Source of the DNA: Xiphophorus maculatus
Lineage: Eukaryota > Chordata > Actinopteri > Cyprinodontiformes > Poeciliidae
NCBI RefSeq assembly: GCF_002775205.1
Contig: NC_036453.1
Span: 12,480,594 to 12,544,593 of the forward strand
Direction: 5' to 3'
Length of the DNA stretch: 64,000 nucleotides
Shown: positions 17,196-39,600 of the stretch, piece after piece
Layout of the letters: the number at the start of each line of letters is the position of its first letter
Position numbering within the stretch: the first letter of the stretch is position 1
Program-made: the position numbers and the translations under genes
Notes under the pieces: generated by a model
Seen by the model: only the letters and a program-made list of their open reading frames with translations
What the model was told of the DNA's origin: nothing
Databases searched by the model: none

Positions 17196-19200
17196 AAAGA
17201 CAACAGAAATGGTGTACCGTTTATTATTTTTATTATTTTTTTGTGGTATTGTATTTTTATATTGCTTAACTTTATTATTCCCTCCCCCTTCCACCAGTTG
17301 TTGTCGTTTTTATTTCGACATGGAGCTTCTTTCTCGACGCCAACACATCATCAGATCCTCCACTGCCAAACCTGTCGTCGGTTTTCCTCCCAGCTGGTTT
17401 TCTCTTTTTGTAGATTTTTTTATCTGTTGAAGCACTAACATACATTTACAAAATCTGGCACTGAAACGGTTTGTATTTTGAACAGTTGGTTACTGTTGGA
17501 TTGCTTGTCTGACTTAAAGTATCATTCCTTACCAAAGTTGCACCGATTGCAGCTTTCCGGCTGATTGACGATCTTTGGGGGGGGATTTGTAAATTAAAAT
17601 GTGTTCAAAATATCTTAAAGGAAGAAATTTTATTCAAATAAATAAACCCAGTTGAAATTTTTTAGCGCCCAAAAATAAATGTTTTTTTGTACAGTGGAGT
17701 TTTGATTTCTTGGCTTTGTCCTGTTTTTAGCTTCTCTGTAAATGACATATTGAATAAGCTAACCCTTAAAACAGCTGGATGATTCCGGCCAGCATCTGGA
17801 AATCTGTTCTCCTTTCCCACCATCCGTTTTCCATCCGCCTCGTGTTCAAGGTGCGAATGCATCCGAGTGACCAACCCGTTTTTTTTTTTTTTCACCCCTC
17901 CCTCCTTTTTGAACTTTTGTATTTGAGTGATAGTGTAGATTTTTGTATATTGTATACATTGTGTAATTATTTGAATTCTGTGTATTGCCATCAGCACCAG
18001 TGGTGAGCTCTCCGTTATTGAGAATTGTTTTGAGGAAATGAAAGTTAAACTATTGTCCCTCCTAATCCTCAGATCTCGCAGTGTCTTCATATTTCATTTA
18101 TTTTGTTTTTTGTATTTTTTGTATATCTAAACCATTATTTTGAGTAAAAATGTAAAGTGTCTTACTTTTATGTACATTGTCCCTCATTGCATGTTTAAAA
18201 TCATGCAGCTCCATCGTAACATTGTTTTCCTCGCTCTTCTTCCCCAGATCTTCCAGCACTTCTTTTTTCGTAATCTTGAACCCGAGTCGGGTTTTCTGGA
18301 TTTATCCCCAAAGGTTCAAAATTATGAGAAGTCTGTGTAATGAGCAGCTTGGAAGTAAAACTGAGACGTTTTTCACAGGAGGAATGGACGCAAAAAATTC
18401 AAACCAATGACTATACTGACCTCTGCTGGAACCAGTCTGTGTGTATATGTGTAGTTTTTGCTGTAATATATTTAGAGGCATTTTGTAATCATGGAAAAGG
18501 AAATATATTGGGCAATTCTATGGGATTGCATGGGTTTCTATTAGGTTTTTTTTGTAGGGAAGTAACATTGGCACAACAGGTTTTATAGCAAAATCAAAAA
18601 AATCTGGGCATGTTTTACAGATGTGTGTCTCCTGACCTGTTTTGTTGGTGCTGAGGACGTTGTGTCATAGGCAGGCGCTGACCAAGTGAAGGAATGGGAT
18701 GACCTGATTTGAGAGAGAATATTGTAAAAAAAAAAAAAAAAAAAAAAAATTTGTAAATTTTTCTGGAGCGCCGTCTCCAGGGATAAGTTGCTCTATTGAC
18801 CGGAAACACGACTTCCAAGAAGAAACAAAACTCTACGAGCTGCTTACAGTGAACACAAATGTTACCACATCCAGTCTTCAGCTGGACAGAATTTAGCGAA
18901 CCCAAATATAGAAGTTATAATAATAAAATGTGTTCTGGTGGGCTGAGCTGAGAAATGTGTTGATGCGTGTTGCATAGAAGCAAAATGAGAGCGCTCAGTG
19001 AAAAAGACCAGTGCCAACGACTGAAGTGTTAACTGTTTCCTTTTTACCTCATGATGAAGCTGGAAAGAAAGAAACTGTCCACTGTGCATAGTTCCTAGTA
19101 GACGGATTGTGTTTTGTCTGCTATATACTTTTGTTTGTTTACTGCTATTTCTTATGGATCGGCTCTTGTACATTTCTTATAATAAACTGGGTTTTAAGCC
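17196..19200 (+). other. rsf1 3' untranslated region
   Basis: AT-rich DNA follows the rsf1 stop, with no convincing coding frame. A canonical AATAAA at 19181-19186 suggests cleavage near 19200; an earlier AATAAA near 17640 could give a shorter transcript. A 24-base A-run at about 18726-18749 lies inside it. The end is inferred from the hexamer only. Confidence 0.6.
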
Positions 19201-30059: not shown

Positions 30060-30900
30060 GTCCGCGGTCCGGAGCCTTACAGGCGGGTTTATCCCGAGGA
30101 TCGAGTCGCTGGTTGGACAGAGCGCAACTTTTCAGACTAGTTATCAGTGGCAGAGTGTCAAAGTCCGGGAGACCCACGTTGTCTCCGCTGCGTCAGTTTT
30201 TATCGTTAAACAGGAAACAGAATGACTCAACCTTCAAATTAAAGGCATGACCAACAATTTGATACGGCAATGTCTCAAACAATTATCCAAACCAAAATGT
30301 ACTCTGATAGAAATCTAAATTTGTTGGAAACATAAATTACAGACCTACTTTGGCTAAAAGTAAATATTTAAGTTACTTTTATTATTTTTTAAGCAGTTTG
30401 ATGCATCATCTTTTATTTTTCTCTATATCTATACATGTCTTGTGACTCCAGCAATGGGGTATTGTGAATAAAATTTTTTTTAAAAAATCAATACATACAT
30501 TATATTTGCAATGTTATTATTGGTCTAATCTTGTTTTGGACCGTTTTTCTTGATTGGTCACATTTTTTAACACTATTTGATCAAATGCTAGTTCATTTAA
30601 TCTGAAAAAGGGAACTTCAGATCTTTAAATAGGTTTATTTTGCTGTTGGACCAATTTTCTTATAAGACAAAAAAAAAAAAAAAAAAAACCAGGAATGTCC
30701 CAGTTAAATTTTTAAGAAAGATTTTTGTCTTTTTTACGTGGTTATGGTTACTCTATCCAACTGAAGGAAATAACTTCTGCTCTTTCTGTGAATAATCCAG
30801 TTATCCTTTTTTTGGTACTCTTTTCCAAAATTTTCCAAATCATTACAATAAATAGACGACAACAAATTTGAGATTCAGTTCACTCAATTTAACCTTTTTG
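30060..30900. other. aqp11 upstream region
   Basis: This is the probable promoter side of the minus-strand aqp11. The GC-rich part lies next to the start codon (30060-30190), then the DNA becomes AT-rich. A 20-base A-run is at about 30669-30688. No coding exon is recognised. Confidence 0.4.
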
Positions 30901-31397
30901 CAGGGCCGTGCAGAGACCTTTGGAGGGTCAGGGGCTCAAATTTAAAAAAGGGGCACATTGAACAAAAACTCCGTACAACAACATAGCAACGACCCATATT
31001 AATCAAGAATCTAATTGGTTCCTACTGTATCATCGCCATCATGTGGGGAAATGCAAAGCAAATCTAGTCTATATTTTCCCCAACAGGTATAAAGTTTCTG
31101 TTTCTGCTGCTGACAGTCCTGGAGGTCTGAGCTGATCTGAGACTGTAGCTGTTAAACAGACCAGAGGAGAGAAGGTCAAAGGTTATGAAGTTATTAAATA
31201 AGCTAATTTGCTGCCATTTTACTAATTAATCCCTAATAATATCTATTTAACCTCTAGAACAACCTGGCTGCAGACTGATTTATAGATCAAAAAGCTCACA
31301 GGGGTTAACTCTATATAATAGTTTGATGTTAAACTTCCAGATCTAGAATTATAAGACTGGGATATCAAGGCAGAGAAAACTGAGTAGCTGCTGATAG

Positions 31398-31450
31398 GGG
31401 CCATTCAGGGGCCTCCAGACATTCAGGGGCCTCCAGACATTCAGGGGCCC
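31398..31450. repeat. Short 18-bp tandem repeat
   Basis: About two and a half copies of ATTCAGGGGCCTCCAGAC are present. The words resemble hAT terminal sequence, so they could be subterminal repeats of the surrounding element. Confidence 0.7.
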
Positions 31451-31908
31451 CTAGAAATGGTTTAATTATAACACAGACTGTAGAACTAAACCTGTAGCAT
31501 CATTTATAGAGAATGACAATGTTATTACATTTTATTTAATGCATTCAGCTGAGAAAAATAAATAGTACATTTAGGATTTAATTAGGACGTTCACTTTGTA
31601 AAAGTTTAAAGAATCATCTTGATAGTTTGATTGTTGCGTTACCATGGCTACAATATGGTGTAATCTTTGTGTTTGAATTGGGTTTGTTCACAAATACATC
31701 ACAGCAAATAACCAATAATCAGTGATTGATTTTAAACTGGGCCAATAAACCTGGTCTCCTTCTCACAGATTCACCTGATCGATATTTAAACGTTAGTCAT
31801 GCGGAGGTTCTTAGTAGGACGGGTTCTGGAGGGAGGGGGGTTCTGTCTAAGGCCCCATATTACTTTGGGCCGGCCCTGGAGGAACAGCTGCTGCAATGCA
31901 CATCTCTG

Positions 31909-31950
31909 GAATCTACCTGGAATCTACCTGGAATCTACCTGGAATCCCCT
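31909..31950. repeat. 11-bp tandem repeat
   Basis: Three and a half copies of CTGGAATCTAC are followed by a variant. Just to the left, 31860-31880 holds GGGCCGGCCCTG, which resembles another hAT terminus without a visible partner. Confidence 0.8.
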
Positions 31951-32012
31951 GGTGGCTCCTGTCAGTCCGCCGATGCTTTGGAGACATTTTGATTAATTTC
32001 ATTGTGGCATGT

Positions 32013-32555
32013 TTGGCTTTTTGCTGCGGTTCTAATTATTGCTACAATATTTTCTCTGATGTTTATTTCATGAACTCTAATTGGGCCGAATCTTCCTTTA
32101 ACACTTGAGGTTCTGCAATAAGTTCTATTTACAGTCGTGAACCTCCAGCCCAGATCCTGTCAGCAGCAGCTTTAACCTGCCTGATAGAAACGTTAAGGAG
32201 AAGCAGAGCGAACAGAGAGCAGGTGGTACCAGGTGGTACCAGGTGGTACCAGGTGGTACCAGGTGGTACCGGGGCTTTGATCTGCATTGTGACTCGCGGT
32301 GACAGTCGGTACCGTGTCTTATATCAGGATGTCTGATATAAATCAGATATTCTTTCTATCTGTCGGTGGACCGACTCAAGCTGCCTGTAGTGAACCGGGC
32401 TTTTAGCAGAATGATGAAGTTAAAAGTCAGAAGTTTCTCTGCAGCTGAAACATTTCTGTGTTTATGGGCGAGGCGGGTTTTGTCCCGCTATAGCGAGGAC
32501 GATTATAAAAATATAAATAGAAACAGTTTTTCTAACATCAACATCAGACCTACAA
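32013..32555. repeat. 0.54-kb direct repeat, left copy
   Basis: It is near-identical to 35833-36365. Seen differences are one extra 10-bp AGGTGGTACC unit here (five against four) and a few substitutions. An additional shared block follows: ACACTTAAAGTCCAAC.. at about 32569-32606 recurs at about 36764-36801. A 63-codon frame (MDRLKLPVVNRAFSRMMKLK) is kept in both copies but matches no family I know. Confidence 0.95.
32221..32270. repeat. 10-bp tandem repeat AGGTGGTACC, five copies
   Basis: Five perfect copies occur within the left direct repeat. The matching site at 36041-36080 has four copies. The repeat therefore changed length after the two segments duplicated. Confidence 0.97.
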
Positions 32556-32797
32556 CTTCGTACACTTAATACACTTAAAGTCCAACAAAAAGATTCATAG
32601 AAAATAATAATACCAGTAATAGTAATACTGTTAATCTCTTCATGTTAAATAAAAAATATTACTTAATATTTAAGTACTTAGTCATTATTTCAGCTTGACT
32701 CATTCAGAACTGTTCTGATCGTTTCCATAGCAACGATCAGAAGCAAGACCTCCCCCAGAAGTCCAGTGAGCTCACTGATGAGGTCATAGATGACATC

Positions 32798-33772
32798 ATG
32801 TACATCACAATAGATCAAAGAAGTTCTAAAGATTTAATGTGTTGCGCTCCAACATTGAGCCCAAACAGTTTTCAGAGACCAGAAGCCAACATGAAGATCA
32901 GTGATCATTTCAGAGCTTTTTTGGACAACTTTCATTTTCACCGTGAGACAACTGAGGACAGCGAGGACGGATTAAACCCCATAAAGATGACCCAGAACAT
33001 GAGACGCTTTGAGAAAGACATGAGACCTGTGGAACACTTTTTTAGAAACCTGTCTGCTTTGTCCAGCTGGCGCTCTGTGCACATGACTGCCTGTTTTTTC
33101 TTCATCTACATGTGCACAGTGTGGCATGGCTGGACCTTTTCTTTCGTCGTGCTCTTCATGATTCTCCAGCTTTCTGTAAATTATTTAATTTCCAAAGGCT
33201 GGAGGATCGAGTGGAGCATCATACCCGACATGGGTGAGCCAGTGGAACTTCTACAAGAGAACCTAAATATGGTTCAGATGTTCCACTGGGTTGCCAAAAC
33301 TGCTCAGAAAACCCAGAAGCTTTTTGGAAACACGGCCGACATGCTTGAGAAGATAAAAAACCTCTGCATGTGGGCTCGGCCAGAGCTCACTGTTAAGATC
33401 TATGTGATACTGTGGCTGTTTTTTATCTTCTCATGCATGTTACCATTCCAGCTGCTGGGTTTTATCCTAGGTGTTTCTGTAGGGATCAAGATTTTTATCA
33501 TCGACTTGATCTTTGAAAGGTTCCCAAAGCTGCGGCAGCAGTTTGACGTCCCCTACAACCTCTGGGCTGATTTACCCACTGACCTGCAGCTGAGGGACCC
33601 CAGAAACACCTTGCTGAGCAGGTGGATGGCCAAAGCAAAGGCCCGATGGAGCACGGCCCGAAGGAGCATTTCCAATGCTCTTCTCGGTGCCAGAAGGAGG
33701 CTCGTTTTGCCTCCACGCTCCCGCTTCATCGGGACCTTGCATGCATGGCGACGTCGGGTATGGCGACGATAG
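32798..33772 (+). CDS. GRAMD4-like protein fragment, intronless open frame of 324 codons
   Basis: Residues of about 60-275 resemble the middle of vertebrate GRAMD4. Matches include RRFEKDMRPVEHFF, VWHGW, LSVNYLISKGWRIEWSIIPD, LFGNTADMLEKIKNL and LPTDLQL. Two hydrophobic regions are visible (about 95-130 and 203-245), the second ending in a FILGVSVGIKIFIIDLIF-type segment. GRAMD4 is a mitochondria- and ER-associated membrane protein with an N-terminal coiled coil and C-terminal GRAM domain; both ends are missing here. No intron interrupts the matching part, whereas GRAMD4 genes have many exons, so a retrocopy or captured cDNA is likely. The last 45 residues are Arg-rich and match nothing I know. 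Start is uncertain: the first ATG gives 324 residues, a second at 32891 also fits. It lies inside the hAT-like unit. Expression is unknown; it may be a pseudogene. Confidence 0.65.
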   Translation: MYITIDQRSSKDLMCCAPTLSPNSFQRPEANMKISDHFRAFLDNFHFHRETTEDSEDGLNPIKMTQNMRRFEKDMRPVEHFFRNLSALSSWRSVHMTACFFFIYMCTVWHGWTFSFVVLFMILQLSVNYLISKGWRIEWSIIPDMGEPVELLQENLNMVQMFHWVAKTAQKTQKLFGNTADMLEKIKNLCMWARPELTVKIYVILWLFFIFSCMLPFQLLGFILGVSVGIKIFIIDLIFERFPKLRQQFDVPYNLWADLPTDLQLRDPRNTLLSRWMAKAKARWSTARRSISNALLGARRRLVLPPRSRFIGTLHAWRRRVWRR

Positions 33773-34104
33773 CGGACCAAAGTGTGTCCCAGGTCTCGCA
33801 GGATGACGGGAGCAACTGCTTTTGGAAAAGCGTTTCATGTTCAAGGAACAACCAACGGATGTCTGTGGGAAAAGGTAAGAAATGAAGTCACACCTGACGT
33901 TACGGTTTCTCCAGCCCCTCCTCTTGACCATGATTAAGGAACTTTTGGAGAGGAACTAAAACTAACAAATTCGGAAGATGAAAAAATCCCAGAACCAAAT
34001 TATTATTGACCATTTTGAGGCTGGAGAAATCTGACTGGGACTGAACATGTGTCCTGATGTGTTCAGTTAAATGAAATTATGGGATTAAAAGGTAAAAAGA
34101 TTTG

Positions 34105-34630
34105 ACAGGTTTCCTGTTTGCAGGTTTCTCTCCGGGTGCTCCGGCTTCCTGCCACAGTCTGAAATTAAGACTGTTTAGTTAATTGGCCTCTAAATTGTGC
34201 TCAGGTGTGATTAAAACATTTCTTTTCTTTTCCTTGACTAAACCGTTTGCCTGGGTCTGAATTCCTGCCTGGGTTCTTCTGTCTTTATGGGGTTTGCATT
34301 TCCTCCTAGTGCATTAGTGGGTTCTCTCCGGCTTCCTCCCAGAGTCCAAAGAAATGATTGTTGATTTATTTGGCTTGTCTAGTTGACCTTTGCCCCATGT
34401 CTTCTTCCCTCTCTTTTGCTTAAAGTAGTTTTGGCCAAAACTACTTTAAGCAAATGTCAAACATACATTTTTGTGATTACATTTCATAAATATCAAAAAG
34501 TAGTTTCCTGTTTGCAGGTTTCTCTCCGGGTACTCCGGCTTCCTGCCACAGTCTAAAATCACGACTGTTTAGTTAACTGGTCTCTGAATTCTGCTACGGT
34601 GTGATTGAAACATTTCTTTTATTTTCTGAA
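34105..34630. repeat. Two direct copies of a dispersed fish repeat
   Basis: About 110 bp at 34109-34220 (TTTCCTGTTTGCAGGTTTCT..) recurs with few changes at 34502-34622. The core 'tctccgggt.ctccggcttcctgccacagtc' is a widely dispersed vertebrate repeat. A third, shorter echo is near 34320-34350. Confidence 0.85.
34415..34454. repeat. 40-bp perfect palindrome
   Basis: The left arm TTTGCTTAAAGTAGTTTTGG is followed immediately by its exact reverse complement, with the axis between 34434 and 34435 and no spacer. It lies between the two copies of the dispersed repeat. Confidence 0.97.
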
Positions 34631-34699
34631 ATGTTTCCCTGGGTCATCTTGCTGTGGATTGCCACATGACTGCCCCTTGCTGTGGCAATCCATCTGCTC

Positions 34700-34800
34700 A
34701 GGAAGGTGTTTCTGGTTCAGCTGCAGGTCGGTGGGTAAATTAGCCCAGAAGGTGTAGGGGGCGTCAAACCGCTGCCGCAGCTTCGAGAACCCAGCCTGGG
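34700..34800 (-). pseudogene. Inverted GRAMD4-like fragment (second copy, part 1)
   Basis: The minus-strand translation contains KLRQRFDAPYTFWANLPTD followed by LQL. This matches KLRQQFDVPYNLWADLPTD in the plus-strand copy at about 33527-33592. It is a short, broken piece in the opposite orientation to part 2, so the second copy has been rearranged. Confidence 0.8.
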
Positions 34801-34929
34801 CTCTTCTGTCTTCATGGGGATTGAATGTTCTCCAAGTGGGGCCAAAACTATCCATCCATCCACCAAGGGGGCAACTTCGTTGGCGAATCCCTGGAGGCGG
34901 GTCCGGCGAACAATGTCGGCACAGGGGCC

Positions 34930-35169
34930 GGACCACCTGGAGGCGACGAGGGAATCCTGGGACCACATGGAGGCGACGAGGGAGCCCTGGGACCACATGG
35001 AGGCGTCGAGGGAGCCCTGGGACCACATGGAGGCGTCGAGGGAGCCCTGGGACCACCTGGAGGCGACGAGGGAGCCCTGGGACCACATGGAGGCGACGAG
35101 GGAGCCCTGGGACCACCTGGAGGTGACGAGGGAGCCCTGGGACCACATGGAGGCGTCGAGGGAGCTCTG
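34930..35169. repeat. 30-bp minisatellite, eight copies
   Basis: Eight units start GGACCACMTGGAGGCGWCGA and end GGGAGCCCTG, with A/C and A/T variants. Because the unit is a multiple of three, several frames on both strands stay open. In one plus frame it encodes a Gly-rich GPHGGDEGAL repeat that runs straight into the GRAMD4-like membrane segment to its right. Confidence 0.96.
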
Positions 35170-35256
35170 GGACTGTGGCTGGCCTTTATCTTCTCATGCG
35201 TGTTTCCATTCCAGCTGCTGGCCTTTATCATAGGTGTTTTTGTAGGTGTCTCATAG
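35170..35256 (+). pseudogene. GRAMD4-like membrane-segment fragment (second copy, part 2)
   Basis: LWLAFIFSCVFPFQLLAFII followed by GVFVGVS matches LWLFFIFSCMLPFQLLGFIL plus GVSVG in the 32.8-kb copy. The sequence expected upstream has been replaced by the minisatellite, and the sequence expected downstream lies inverted at 34700-34800. A stop follows at once, so this is a broken copy. Confidence 0.8.
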
Positions 35257-35570
35257 GTGAGAGACGGTGAGAGGCGTCGGGCAGGAGTGGGCATACTTGT
35301 TGCTCCCCATCTCGGCGCCTGTATGTTGGGGTTTACCCCGGTGAACAAGATGGTAGCTTCCCTCCGCCTACGGGTGGGGCGGCGGGTCCTGACTGTTGTT
35401 TGTGCTTACAGGCCGAACGACGGTTCAGATTACCCACTCCTCTTGGAGTCCTTAGAAGAGGTACTGGAGAGTGTCCCTCCTGGGGACTTCCTTGTTCTGC
35501 TGGGGGACTTCAACGTTCACGTGGGCAATGACAGTGAGACCCGGAGGGGTGTAGTTGGGAGGAACTTGTG
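35257..35570 (+). mobile_element. Non-LTR retrotransposon endonuclease fragment
   Basis: The translation contains VGILVAPHLG, LTVVCAYRPN and FLVLLGDFNVHVGNDSETRR. The GDFN motif and its spacing are typical of the AP-type endonuclease of LINE elements. I cannot assign a clade. It is 5' and 3' truncated with no reverse transcriptase. Confidence 0.8.
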
Positions 35571-35832
35571 CTTTACATCACAAGTCATAGAAATAAACAA
35601 CAAAGATATTTATCATTTTTAATCTGTTCTTCAGGTTCAAAATGTTTTTCTATCCGTTTATCTTCACAATTTCATGGAGTTTCTGTAGAAATGTGATTAT
35701 AAACGCTAACATTAGCATTAGCTGCTACATGTTTACCATTGAGGCTATTTTGGCTAGCATAGCTTTCTGACAGGCTAACTGCTTTTAGCACAACTTCAAC
35801 ACACTGGTGTCTCCCAGCATCCAATCAGATCG

Positions 35833-36365
35833 TTGGCTTTTTGCTGCGGTTCTAATTATTGCTACAATATTTTCTCTGATGTTTATTTCATGAACTCTAA
35901 TTGGGCCGAATCTTCCTTTAACACTTGAGGTTCTGCAATAAGTTCTATTTACAGTCGTGAACCTCCAGCCCAGATCCTGTCAGCAGCAGCTTTAACCTGC
36001 CTGATAGAAACGTTAAGGAGAAGCAGAGCGAACAGAGAGCAGGTGGTACCAGGTGGTACCAGGTGGTACCAGGTGGTACCGGGGCTTTGATCTGCATTGT
36101 GACTCGTGGTGACAGTCGGTACCGTGTCTTATATCAGGATGTCTGATATAAATCAGATATTCTTTCTATCTGTCGGTGGACCGACTCAAGCTGCCTGTAG
36201 TGAACCGGGCTTTTAGCAGAATGATGAAGTTAAAAGTCAGAAGTTTCTCTGCAGCTGAAACATTTCTGTGTTTATGGGCGAGGCGGGTTTTGTCCCGCTA
36301 TAGCGAGGACGATTATAAAAATATCAATAGAAACAGTTTTTCTAACATCAACATCAGACCTACAA
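35833..36365. repeat. 0.54-kb direct repeat, right copy
   Basis: Right partner of 32013-32555. It has four copies of the AGGTGGTACC unit at 36041-36080. The right end of the hAT-like unit lies 311 bp further on. Confidence 0.95.
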
Positions 36366-36684
36366 ACCAGTGTATGAAAAAATATTCTTGCCCATAATTT
36401 GATAGAGGACACAGATCCGCCTCCTCCTCACCATGGACCCGGAGTCTGAACAACATGGAGGCTCTGAGAGTCATTATTAGACTGAGGGCAGCCAGACTAG
36501 TTTATTTTTACTAAATTATTATATTTAGTTAAATATTATTGCTGAGGGGCACAAACAGGCCTTCTGACATACAGATTAAAAATAAAAATTAAAAAACTCA
36601 AAAAGGGCACTAGGGGCATCAAGGATAAAAAGGGCAGGGGCTGAAGCCCCCCTCACCCCCCCTCTGAACGTGCCTGCCTTTTTG

Positions 36685-39600
36685 TGTGTTTGCTTCAAGT
36701 TTTTATCTAAATAAACTCTAATTCTTCATCTTATTATTTGACCAATATTTTGAGGGGTAAAAATACACTTAAAGTCCAACAAAAAGATTCATAGAAAATA
36801 ATTTACTCATCTATTTTTTTTTTTACCCTTTAAAGTTCACTTATTGTATATGCATCCTTTATACGGGAGAAATCTGGACTTTACCGGGTTTTAGAGGCAA
36901 AACCAGAGCTGTAACCGTTGACCCGGTTTTATTTTGACGGTTCAACCGGAAGTGCCGATGAATGCGATGGAAACACGGATCTGTTTGGGTGCAACACTGG
37001 CGGTCAGGCTCAACGCAGGGCGAGAACATTCCTGCTCCAGCGGTTTGACAACTTTACTGAGAAAGAGAGCAGCTGGAGGGAGAGCTGAGCTCAGTGGGTT
37101 AAAAAACAGAATAAACTAAAAGAAAATAAAAATTGTGTTGGTTAACAATGGAAGCTGCTGCAAATCCCCAGAGGTGGGCAGAACAGCTAAAACATTTACT
37201 CAAGCAAGAGTAGAAATACTTTCATATATTTACATGAAAGTAAAACTTTTTTTTTTTTTTTTTTTTTAAAGGCTACACAACAGTTTGATCTTAACATCTG
37301 ATTTAACTTGTGAAAAGGTAAATCAGACAGAAAAATTATATTTAGTTATGCAATTCTAGTCTTTAAAAATAACAATTATAATAATAAAAATCGAACTTTA
37401 TTTAATGAGCACTTTTTAAAACAATCAAGTCTGAAGCCAGGACTTGCTGTATGTTCACGTTGGAACGGTGAAATACTCCCTGTAGCAATATTTACCATTT
37501 ATTGTTTACTTGACCCCCAAATGTTACAGCAGTGAGAAAGTGACTTTGGTGCAGAGCTAAGTAGTTTTACTGCATCTTAGCTTTTACCTTTACAGACATC
37601 AGTCAGTTTTTTATCTGAAGTGTTAATACGGAGGATAGCTGTATGTGAACCTTTAAAACAGGTGGACTTTCTGCTGGTTATGTAACAGTAATCTTGTTTT
37701 CACAGGGTCCAACTCTGAGGTGAACTTTGCACATCACACTCTGTGCTTTATAACGTTGCTATGTTCCTTTCTTCGCTTATACTTTGACTCTGGGATTTTA
37801 CTGCAGGTCTCATTCTTACTCAGCATTTTCTCCACGTTATGTTTTGCACTGAGCAACTTCATGCCTTTAGATGTTGACATATTTTGCGTGTTTCTTTTTA
37901 TTTATCTAATTGCATTTATTCTGCCTTCCGTCTAGTTCAAACCAAAAATCTGTTATTTAGGATCATGTTTTGAGATCTTTCATAGCAAAATGTTCTCCTA
38001 TTCAAGCCATATACGCACCAACTACTTGGTCTGGGCTCCTTTTGCATAAATTTCATCAGTGTGATTAGCTTTTTGGTCGCTCTCTTGAAAGGGTTTTGCT
38101 TCACAATCCTCTCCACACTTTTTCCTTCCACCAAACCTTCCACGAATATACCCAACAGACACACTGTGACCTTTTGTAAAGGGGTTTCACAATAAGCCAG
38201 GCATTCTCCCCCATGGTCATTTAGGCCATAACATTACATTTCTGATTATATGTATAAATTGATCTTTACTTAATAACCAAAATATATCAGGATTTTTCAT
38301 TAGCTGTATTTTAAAAAAGGAATTTGAGCATTTCAGATATTTAATCCAGGACTATATTTAACTGTGAGAGCAATGTTTCTGGACATATTTTAAGAAATTT
38401 ATTAAATGAGTCACTGTTGGTATATATATATATATAAAAAAAAGCAAAATACAGAATATTTCACCAAAACGTCGCATCTCTTTAAAGAGGCTGACATCCA
38501 ACTGGACTCAACTGATGGTGTGTTTGCATCACCTTGGCAACAGGTGGCGATGGATGACACCGAAGAGCAGGGTCACCAGCATGACTTATGTACATTTGCT
38601 AGAAAATCTCTAGTGCTTCCGCTTTATTTTCAAAATAAATTTAACAAAAATCTGCTTTGCTCTTTATATTTTCTATCTCGGCTACAGAGTTTCTCCAGAT
38701 ATGGCGGAAAAAATAGACGAGAAACTTAAATTCTGCTCTCAATAAACCAGCAGCTCTTGTTATACAGGCTCTGTTAGTGAACGCCTAAAACGGAGAGAAA
38801 CATACAGTACATAATTATCTTATGTTACTATAAGCTAATTAAATGGGAAGAGATTGAAAGATCTTTCTGTATTTGTTTGTCTGTTTCTGCTTTAGAAACG
38901 GAGTTTTTTGGGGTTTTTTTTTTTTTTTACCACAACCCTCTTAAAAAAGTGATTAACTTTAGTTTGAAATAAAAATAATAATACGAGTCATTTTAGGTTC
39001 TTCTCACAGAACAAATGTGAAGAACAGAAATGTTCCGACTCAGAGAAACACAAATGATCAGGATCATAATTCGTATTGTGACTCTAGGGGGCGCCGTTTC
39101 TTCTTTATTACCTTCGTGTGTTTACCTGGCTAGAGTAAACGCAAAGTGTCACCATGTGAAGAAAGCAACGTGATGTCCAGGTTAATTTCATAAAGTCCCT
39201 TTTATAACCAAACATCGCGGATGAAAGGGAGTCTTATTGCAGATTTTCGTGCATATCTGACTCGGTTCTGTTACTAGGCAACGCATCAGTTTGCTGTGAG
39301 GGTGATAAACATGGAGAAACATCCATCGATCGTTTATACCTACTTGTTCTACAAGTCTTTGAAGCCATCGCTGTGTGGAGAGTTTCTTACAATGTCTTAT
39401 CATGATATGCACTGACACAGAAACCGTAACTAAATCATCCATTAACCAATTTAATGTTTTACCTTTGCAATTTTACTTTAACAAATCATTTGAACTGAGG
39501 AGTTGTTAAAACACAACAGATTTTTAGGGAGTTGATTGGTGACCAAAATTGCAACGTTTGTTACATTTTCAGCTGCACTGGCTGCTTTTCTAATTGCTCA

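Follow-up and report, generated by a model that had tools for sequence, protein, structure and literature searches.

A GRAMD4-like open reading frame lies between the two ends of a non-autonomous hAT transposon in a 64,000-nucleotide stretch of the Xiphophorus maculatus genome (C11:12480594-12544593; hereafter the window, with positions counted from its first nucleotide). With a probability of roughly 0.7, this 5.8-kb unit, at 30901-36676, is a product of recombination at the window site, in which a gene block was placed between the ends of an ordinary 2-kb hAT copy. A sequence-only reading of the window had proposed gene capture by a transposon, which is not supported: the 2-kb relatives of the element have no room for the gene, the fetched gene blocks elsewhere, with one exception, lack hAT ends on both sides, and the unit contains a piece of its own flank. 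The other explanation offered in that reading, a retrocopy nested in an older element, comes nearer in its nested arrangement, but the nested piece is a segment of an existing duplicated block rather than a fresh retrocopy, and it most likely entered via recombination between hAT copies.

The octamer CCTTTTTG stands at 30893-30900 and 36677-36684, directly abutting both ends of the unit, as the sequence-only reading had stated. In the window, it occurs three times on the plus strand (the third at 17904) and once on the minus strand, at 36599. A recount of the 15-bp ends, CAGGGCCGTGCAGAG and the reversed 3' end CAGGCACGTTCAGAG, gave the 12 equal positions already claimed. Searches covered the 704.3-Mb genome in its 101 contigs. 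The 5' 200 bp of the hAT element had matches of at least 94% in all of the best 40 scored out of 399 candidates, and the 3' 200 bp had 40 matches of at least 85%, the best of 296 candidates, the window being counted in both times. Since each end has 40 scored matches in the genome, the ends are not chance resemblances, and the absence of other elements sharing them, which had been named as a ground for rejecting the proposal, is not what the genome holds. Their pairing, on which the proposal had been made to depend, is upheld as well: the two are ends of the same hAT family, and they probably come from a single insertion that has its own 8-bp duplication. On comparison of the sequences, the family is judged to be a real non-autonomous hAT family. 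The window unit resembles such elements in its ends, the length of its duplication, its many copies, and the lack of a transposase in the scanned frames, and it differs from them in being split by 3.3 kb of foreign DNA and built from two hAT copies. Apart from one 33-bp match on C8, the left flank (30393-30900) has no second copy in the genome. The right flank (36677-37200) matches only itself, a second locus described below, to which its first 126 bp are 100% identical, and a 41-bp piece inside the unit.

Five loci with both hAT ends were fetched as complete relatives (L034 to L038). All five match the window pieces 30901-32555 and 36366-36676 joined end to end, over 1.95 to 2.2 kb and with the pieces 88 to 93% identical. 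L035, L036, and L038 share common flanks and a target-site duplication that agrees at 7 of 8 positions, and because of these flanks they are taken as copies of one insertion, so that the five loci are counted as three independent insertions. L037 has an exact duplication, CAGACATG, as the window has (8 of 8), and L034 has none. The inverted ends, starting with CAG, agree at 12 of 15 positions in the window, L036, and L038 and at 13 of 15 in L034, L035, and L037. As complete relatives of about 2 kb leave no room for it, the GRAMD4-like gene is not part of the hAT family, and its membership as a component of that family is ruled out. The search for copies with the same ends, with or without the GRAMD4-like interior, which had been suggested as a check, thus yielded these five without it and, among the loci fetched, a single one with it. 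This is locus V (C11:12445781-12451625, minus strand), which lies 60 kb away in inverted orientation.

The interior of the unit carries an exact copy of 41 bp of its own right flank, which the sequence-only reading did not mention. Because this flank belongs to the site and is single copy apart from the match in V, the interior is best understood as having been assembled at the window site after the hAT element had landed. An incoming element cannot hold the unique flank of its target, and arrival of the unit from elsewhere is therefore excluded if 36685-36802 is the original flank. The junction between this flank copy and the gene block is spanned in only 2 of 37 matching places, the window and V. 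The other 35 matches comprise the right flank itself, 33 places where the match sets in at the border of the block (32626/32627), and one place, on C4, where it sets in at 32631. Upstream of the blocks at L010, L017, L020, and L030, the sequence differs from that in the window.

For the coding part of the GRAMD4-like gene, the best 40 of 89 candidates were scored (41 rows, two of them adjoining at C11:12.67 Mb), and 24 of the 40 places were fetched at 10 kb each (L009 to L032, with L009 the window and L018 V), a span within which hAT ends farther than about 5 kb from the gene lie beyond view. The scored places lie on C11, C16, C7, C17, C23, and the small contig C62, and many are regularly spaced. 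The family regions comprise C11 at 11.9 to 12.7 and 14.3 to 16.4 Mb, C16 at 21.8 to 22.7 Mb, C62, C7, C17, and C23. Among 20 compared loci, only the window and V have hAT ends on both sides of the gene. In four further loci (C7, C17, C11:14.7 Mb, and C23; 10 kb each), the fetched sequence upstream of the gene contained no hAT end, and at C23 none was present anywhere in the 10 kb fetched. The first three of these loci have a hAT 5' end 4.5 to 4.7 kb downstream of the gene start, within the common block, with CTCCGGGT or CTCTGGGT as its left flank. At these three loci, the hAT end is a downstream part of the common block, which also rules out the gene as a component of the transposon. When the three copies were extended toward their hAT 3' ends, L039 and L040 gave no match and L041 matched in its middle part only. 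At C11:14.74-14.84 Mb (L003 and L005 to L008), copies of the hAT 5' end recur every ~25 to 28 kb with identical left flanks.

Within the unit, 32013-32555 and 35833-36365 form a direct repeat of 97.8% identity, also absent from the sequence-only reading, which is shared by the 5' hAT part (hAT1) and the 5'-truncated second copy (hAT2). The junction of the gene block with hAT2 at 35833 is complete in nine of the best 40 scored of 337 candidates. All nine lie on C11 at 11.9 to 12.7 Mb: the window and eight other places, V among them. Because this junction recurs, hAT2 must have come along with the gene block. Near the distal end of hAT2, at 36347-36361, the variant is that of hAT1 and of L033 and differs from that of L017 and V, as expected if hAT2 was rejoined to the element of the window site. 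L033 (C11:12.72 Mb, minus strand) is a near-complete hAT copy with 99.1% identity to the left part of the window unit; its first 15 bp are missing and its 5' side is rearranged.

The unit probably arose as follows. A 2-kb non-autonomous hAT element inserted at the window site and generated the CCTTTTTG duplication, as its ends, relatives, and flank show. The element would later have been opened in place, where a segment of a neighboring GRAMD4-like block, together with the hAT copy downstream in that block, would have been joined to the right flank. Homologous recombination between the two hAT copies may then have re-established the 3' end along with the duplication and the flank beyond it. 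A later deletion may have removed the first of the 3' ends together with 85 bp of flank and left 41 bp inside, since both of the lost parts are intact in V. The hAT copies would have served as homology arms and not as a gene-carrying transposon. Several points weigh against this account. The argument from the flank presumes that 36685-36802 is the original flank, and neither an empty nor a pre-rearrangement site has been seen. The order of events is one that we infer. L034, one of the three independent complete insertions, has no target duplication. The variant of hAT2 at 36107 is that of the array copies and L033 rather than that of hAT1, and the two window copies share the variant of L017 at 36004, where L033 differs; because the variants of hAT2 are mixed in this way, the exchange history must comprise more than one step. 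Between the window and V, the hAT copies also bear signs of several exchanges (14 differences in 313 positions just before the 3' 311 bp and 1 in 311 in the inner 3' end), so that donor and recipient cannot be named.

Locus V reads, in order, CTGGAGCA, a hAT 5' end, a foreign stretch, a hAT 3' end, CCTTTTTG, 126 bp of window flank, the gene block, a second hAT 3' end, and CTGGAACA. In its first hAT, at 3032-3521 of L018 reversed, ~490 bp have no match in the window unit. The arrangement of V raises a less probable alternative, in which V would be a vertebrate composite insertion, or macrotransposition. The 5' end of the window hAT and the 3' end of the hAT in the block, as neighboring copies, would have been used together by a hAT transposase in one transposition reaction during replication, moving 126 bp of donor flank and the block with its intact frame, and the window interior would afterward have been inherited from V or a precursor by recombination. 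The outer ends of V stand between the near-duplicates CTGGAGCA and CTGGAACA, which agree at 7 of 8 positions, and its inner 3' end is still attached to CCTTTTTG and the donor flank, which is end-joined to the block by a filler of 17 to 18 bp. Maize Ac composite insertions are described with this layout (PMC4270019), as is the capture of sequence by paired Pack-TYPE elements (PMC8903248). With the maize Ac/fAc composites and macrotransposons (PMC4270019, PMC9910405), V shares outer ends with a near duplication and an inner end on donor flank that is end-joined to the flank of a second copy; it differs in its 7-of-8 duplication and its seemingly independent outer copy, and neither a reciprocal product nor a transposase has been demonstrated.

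The divergence of V from the window is uneven and argues against a composite insertion. The inner parts are nearly identical to those of the window: there are no differences in the 126 bp of flank, 2 in 323 positions across 32568-32890, 3 in 882 in the coding part, and 3 in 264 across 35568-35832. In the 5' end, V and the window disagree at 7 of 431 positions, or at 9 by the multiple alignment, compared with 1 of 437 in the common 3' end and flank (Fisher p 0.037, or 0.0085 with 32568-33772 added). In the outer 3' end they disagree at 10 of 309 (p 0.006 against the inner parts). These p values are uncorrected for several tests. In the multiple alignment, the V 5' end, at 97.9% identity, is no nearer to the window than that of L033, at 98.3%. 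As they are less close to the window than the inner parts are, the outer ends of V are likely those of an independent hAT copy, and the patterns compared fit a middle received by recombination. The inexact duplication and the finding of a single such locus also count against a composite insertion. Recombination at the window site is given more weight because it needs no transposase event, because of this uneven divergence, and because the window unit is not the product of a one-step transposition.

A history like that of Pack-TYPE elements, in which the gene was first captured and the complete 5.8-kb unit then transposed into the window site, is very unlikely. The inverted ends and the exact 8-bp duplication at the outer borders are what such an event would leave, but the interior holds single-copy flank of the site itself, its junction occurs elsewhere only in V, where the inner 3' end bears window flank, and the complete relatives measure 2 kb. 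As a one-step event, it is ruled out by the flank inside, if 36685-36802 is original. The joint movement of ends and gene, with new duplications, that characterizes Pack-TYPE elements was not seen for the window unit, and the fetched gene copies lack hAT ends on both sides, except for the ambiguous V. A GRAMD4 retrocopy that simply landed in an older hAT element would account for an intronless frame related to split exons elsewhere, but this reading has next to no probability, being ruled out by segment borders that are common to the array members, followed by a second hAT piece, with no retrocopy borders. An assembly misjoin, conceivable at a locus between arrays of near-identical blocks, is equally negligible, as both flanks are single copy and the flank-block junction recurs, with differences, 60 kb away in V.

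Table 1. Parts of the unit, its duplications, and its right flank, in window positions
Feature	Position	Strand	Remarks
Left copy of the target-site duplication, CCTTTTTG	30893..30900	.	Abuts the 5' end
hAT1, 5' part of a non-autonomous hAT, 3' part lost	30901..32555	+	Collinear with L034-L038; 99.1% to L033 over 30916-32555
12-bp filler at the deletion of the hAT1 3' end and the first 85 bp of right flank	32556..32567	.	Both deleted parts present in V
41-bp copy of own right flank (36762-36802), exact	32568..32608	+	Absent from the sequence-only reading
Filler between flank copy and gene block	32609..32625	.	Junction known from the window and V only
Segment of duplicated GRAMD4-like gene block	32626..35832	+	Border common to other blocks
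GRAMD4-like open frame	32699..33772	+	357 codons between stops, 293 counted from the ATG at 32891; no GRAM match
Antisense fragment of GRAMD4-like frame	34674..34791	-	Copy of 33519-33641, 84.6%
30-bp minisatellite	34870..35199	.	Copy number differs among blocks
Sense fragment of GRAMD4-like frame	35172..35246	+	Copy of 33409-33483, 88%
LINE-like (long interspersed nuclear element) endonuclease fragment	35257..35565	+	Pfam E 0.003, weak, under the curated cut-off
Block segment that at C7, C17, and C11:14.7 Mb precedes the hAT copy belonging to the block	35568..35832	+	
hAT2, 5'-truncated hAT copy with 3' end	35833..36676	+	Begins at the point in hAT that corresponds to 32013
Right copy of the target-site duplication, CCTTTTTG	36677..36684	.	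Abuts the 3' end
Right flank	36685..36802	+	36677-36802 also in V; the final 41 bp recur within the unit; single copy apart from these

The features of the unit are collected in Table 1. The GRAMD4-like open frame that had been recognized in the interior is present, and the reported pieces of a second copy correspond to its antisense and sense fragments. The antisense fragment is also found in L010 to L019 (10 of 10, C11) and L020 to L025 (6 of 6, C16) and was not seen in L026 to L028. No transposase had been visible in the sequence-only reading, and Pfam found none in the 8 frames scanned of the 15 with at least 80 codons; no search of the genome for hAT transposase genes was made.

Open frames that start with MK and run for 293 codons or more are kept in 20 of the 24 fetched loci (L009 to L025, L029, L030, and L032); L026 has shortened frames only, and the frames of L027, L028, and L031 are broken. 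The ratio of nonsynonymous to synonymous substitution rates (dN/dS) ranges from 0.27 to 0.82, mostly from 0.4 to 0.75, in the 54 defined pairs of 11 sequences. It is undefined between the window and V, the coding parts of which differ by three nonsynonymous changes and no synonymous ones. In all four pairs tested, each of which includes the window sequence, nonsynonymous change is lower than synonymous change (p 0.00019 to 0.021). Synonymous divergence of the window from L029, L030, and L032 is 23 to 26%, against 6 to 8% in the adjoining noncoding DNA, and from L020 it is 8.7% against 2.9%. Divergence at the synonymous sites of 32891-33772 is thus roughly three to four times that of the noncoding DNA to its left and right, an excess that an exchange of coding segments among old copies could account for.

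A decayed relative, L042 (C18:24081200-24083200), shares 39% of 234 aligned positions with the window frame and runs past the end of the family. A 44-residue piece from further along L042 has two matches 128 bp apart on C2 (25.88 Mb) and two on C17 (14.53 Mb), like split exons. The same piece also matches C11:12674972-12675085 (63%, one stop), just after the array frame of L026, which is 59% identical to the window frame. Because the piece matches both the split pieces on C2 and C17 and the site just after the L026 frame, the GRAMD4-like family looks retrocopy-derived. The name GRAMD4 is our presumption for the window frame and its split-exon relatives, and no database match supplied it. Pfam found no GRAM domain in the window frame or in a 69-residue piece of L042, and a search of solved structures with the window frame returned one match, at E 0.46, which we regard as a chance hit.

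In segmental duplications, transposon copies at dispersed sites can recombine non-allelically. The window unit resembles such cases in having repeated hAT sequence at the exchange points and gene arrays nearby, and it differs in keeping outer ends with a true duplication, by which it mimics gene capture. With plant Pack-TYPE (Pack-hAT) elements (PMC8903248), the window unit shares coding sequence between hAT ends with a target duplication and two surrounding hAT copies in the same orientation; unlike them, its interior does not form a copy set at new sites (V being ambiguous), it holds its own flank, and the host is a fish. In the listed titles and opening lines of abstracts on hAT gene capture, macrotransposons, non-allelic recombination, and alternative transposition in fish, no vertebrate hAT case appears. 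Among the papers listed on GRAMD4 with fish duplication, on GRAMD4 with Xiphophorus, and on retrogenes, there was no description of the GRAMD4-like family, which is no proof of absence. In X. maculatus GRAMD4, 94 fast-evolving sites outside the GRAM domain are reported (PMC6027864), and mixing of paralogues could contribute to these sites.

That a gene stands between matching inverted ends with an exact 8-bp duplication does not suffice to call gene capture, as recombination between copies of one transposon can set a gene between true ends. With locus V, it can be tested whether ends taken from two hAT copies have together moved a gene in a vertebrate. The surrounding GRAMD4-like family keeps intact frames at 20 of the 24 loci fetched and is a candidate for studying a fast-expanding retrogene.

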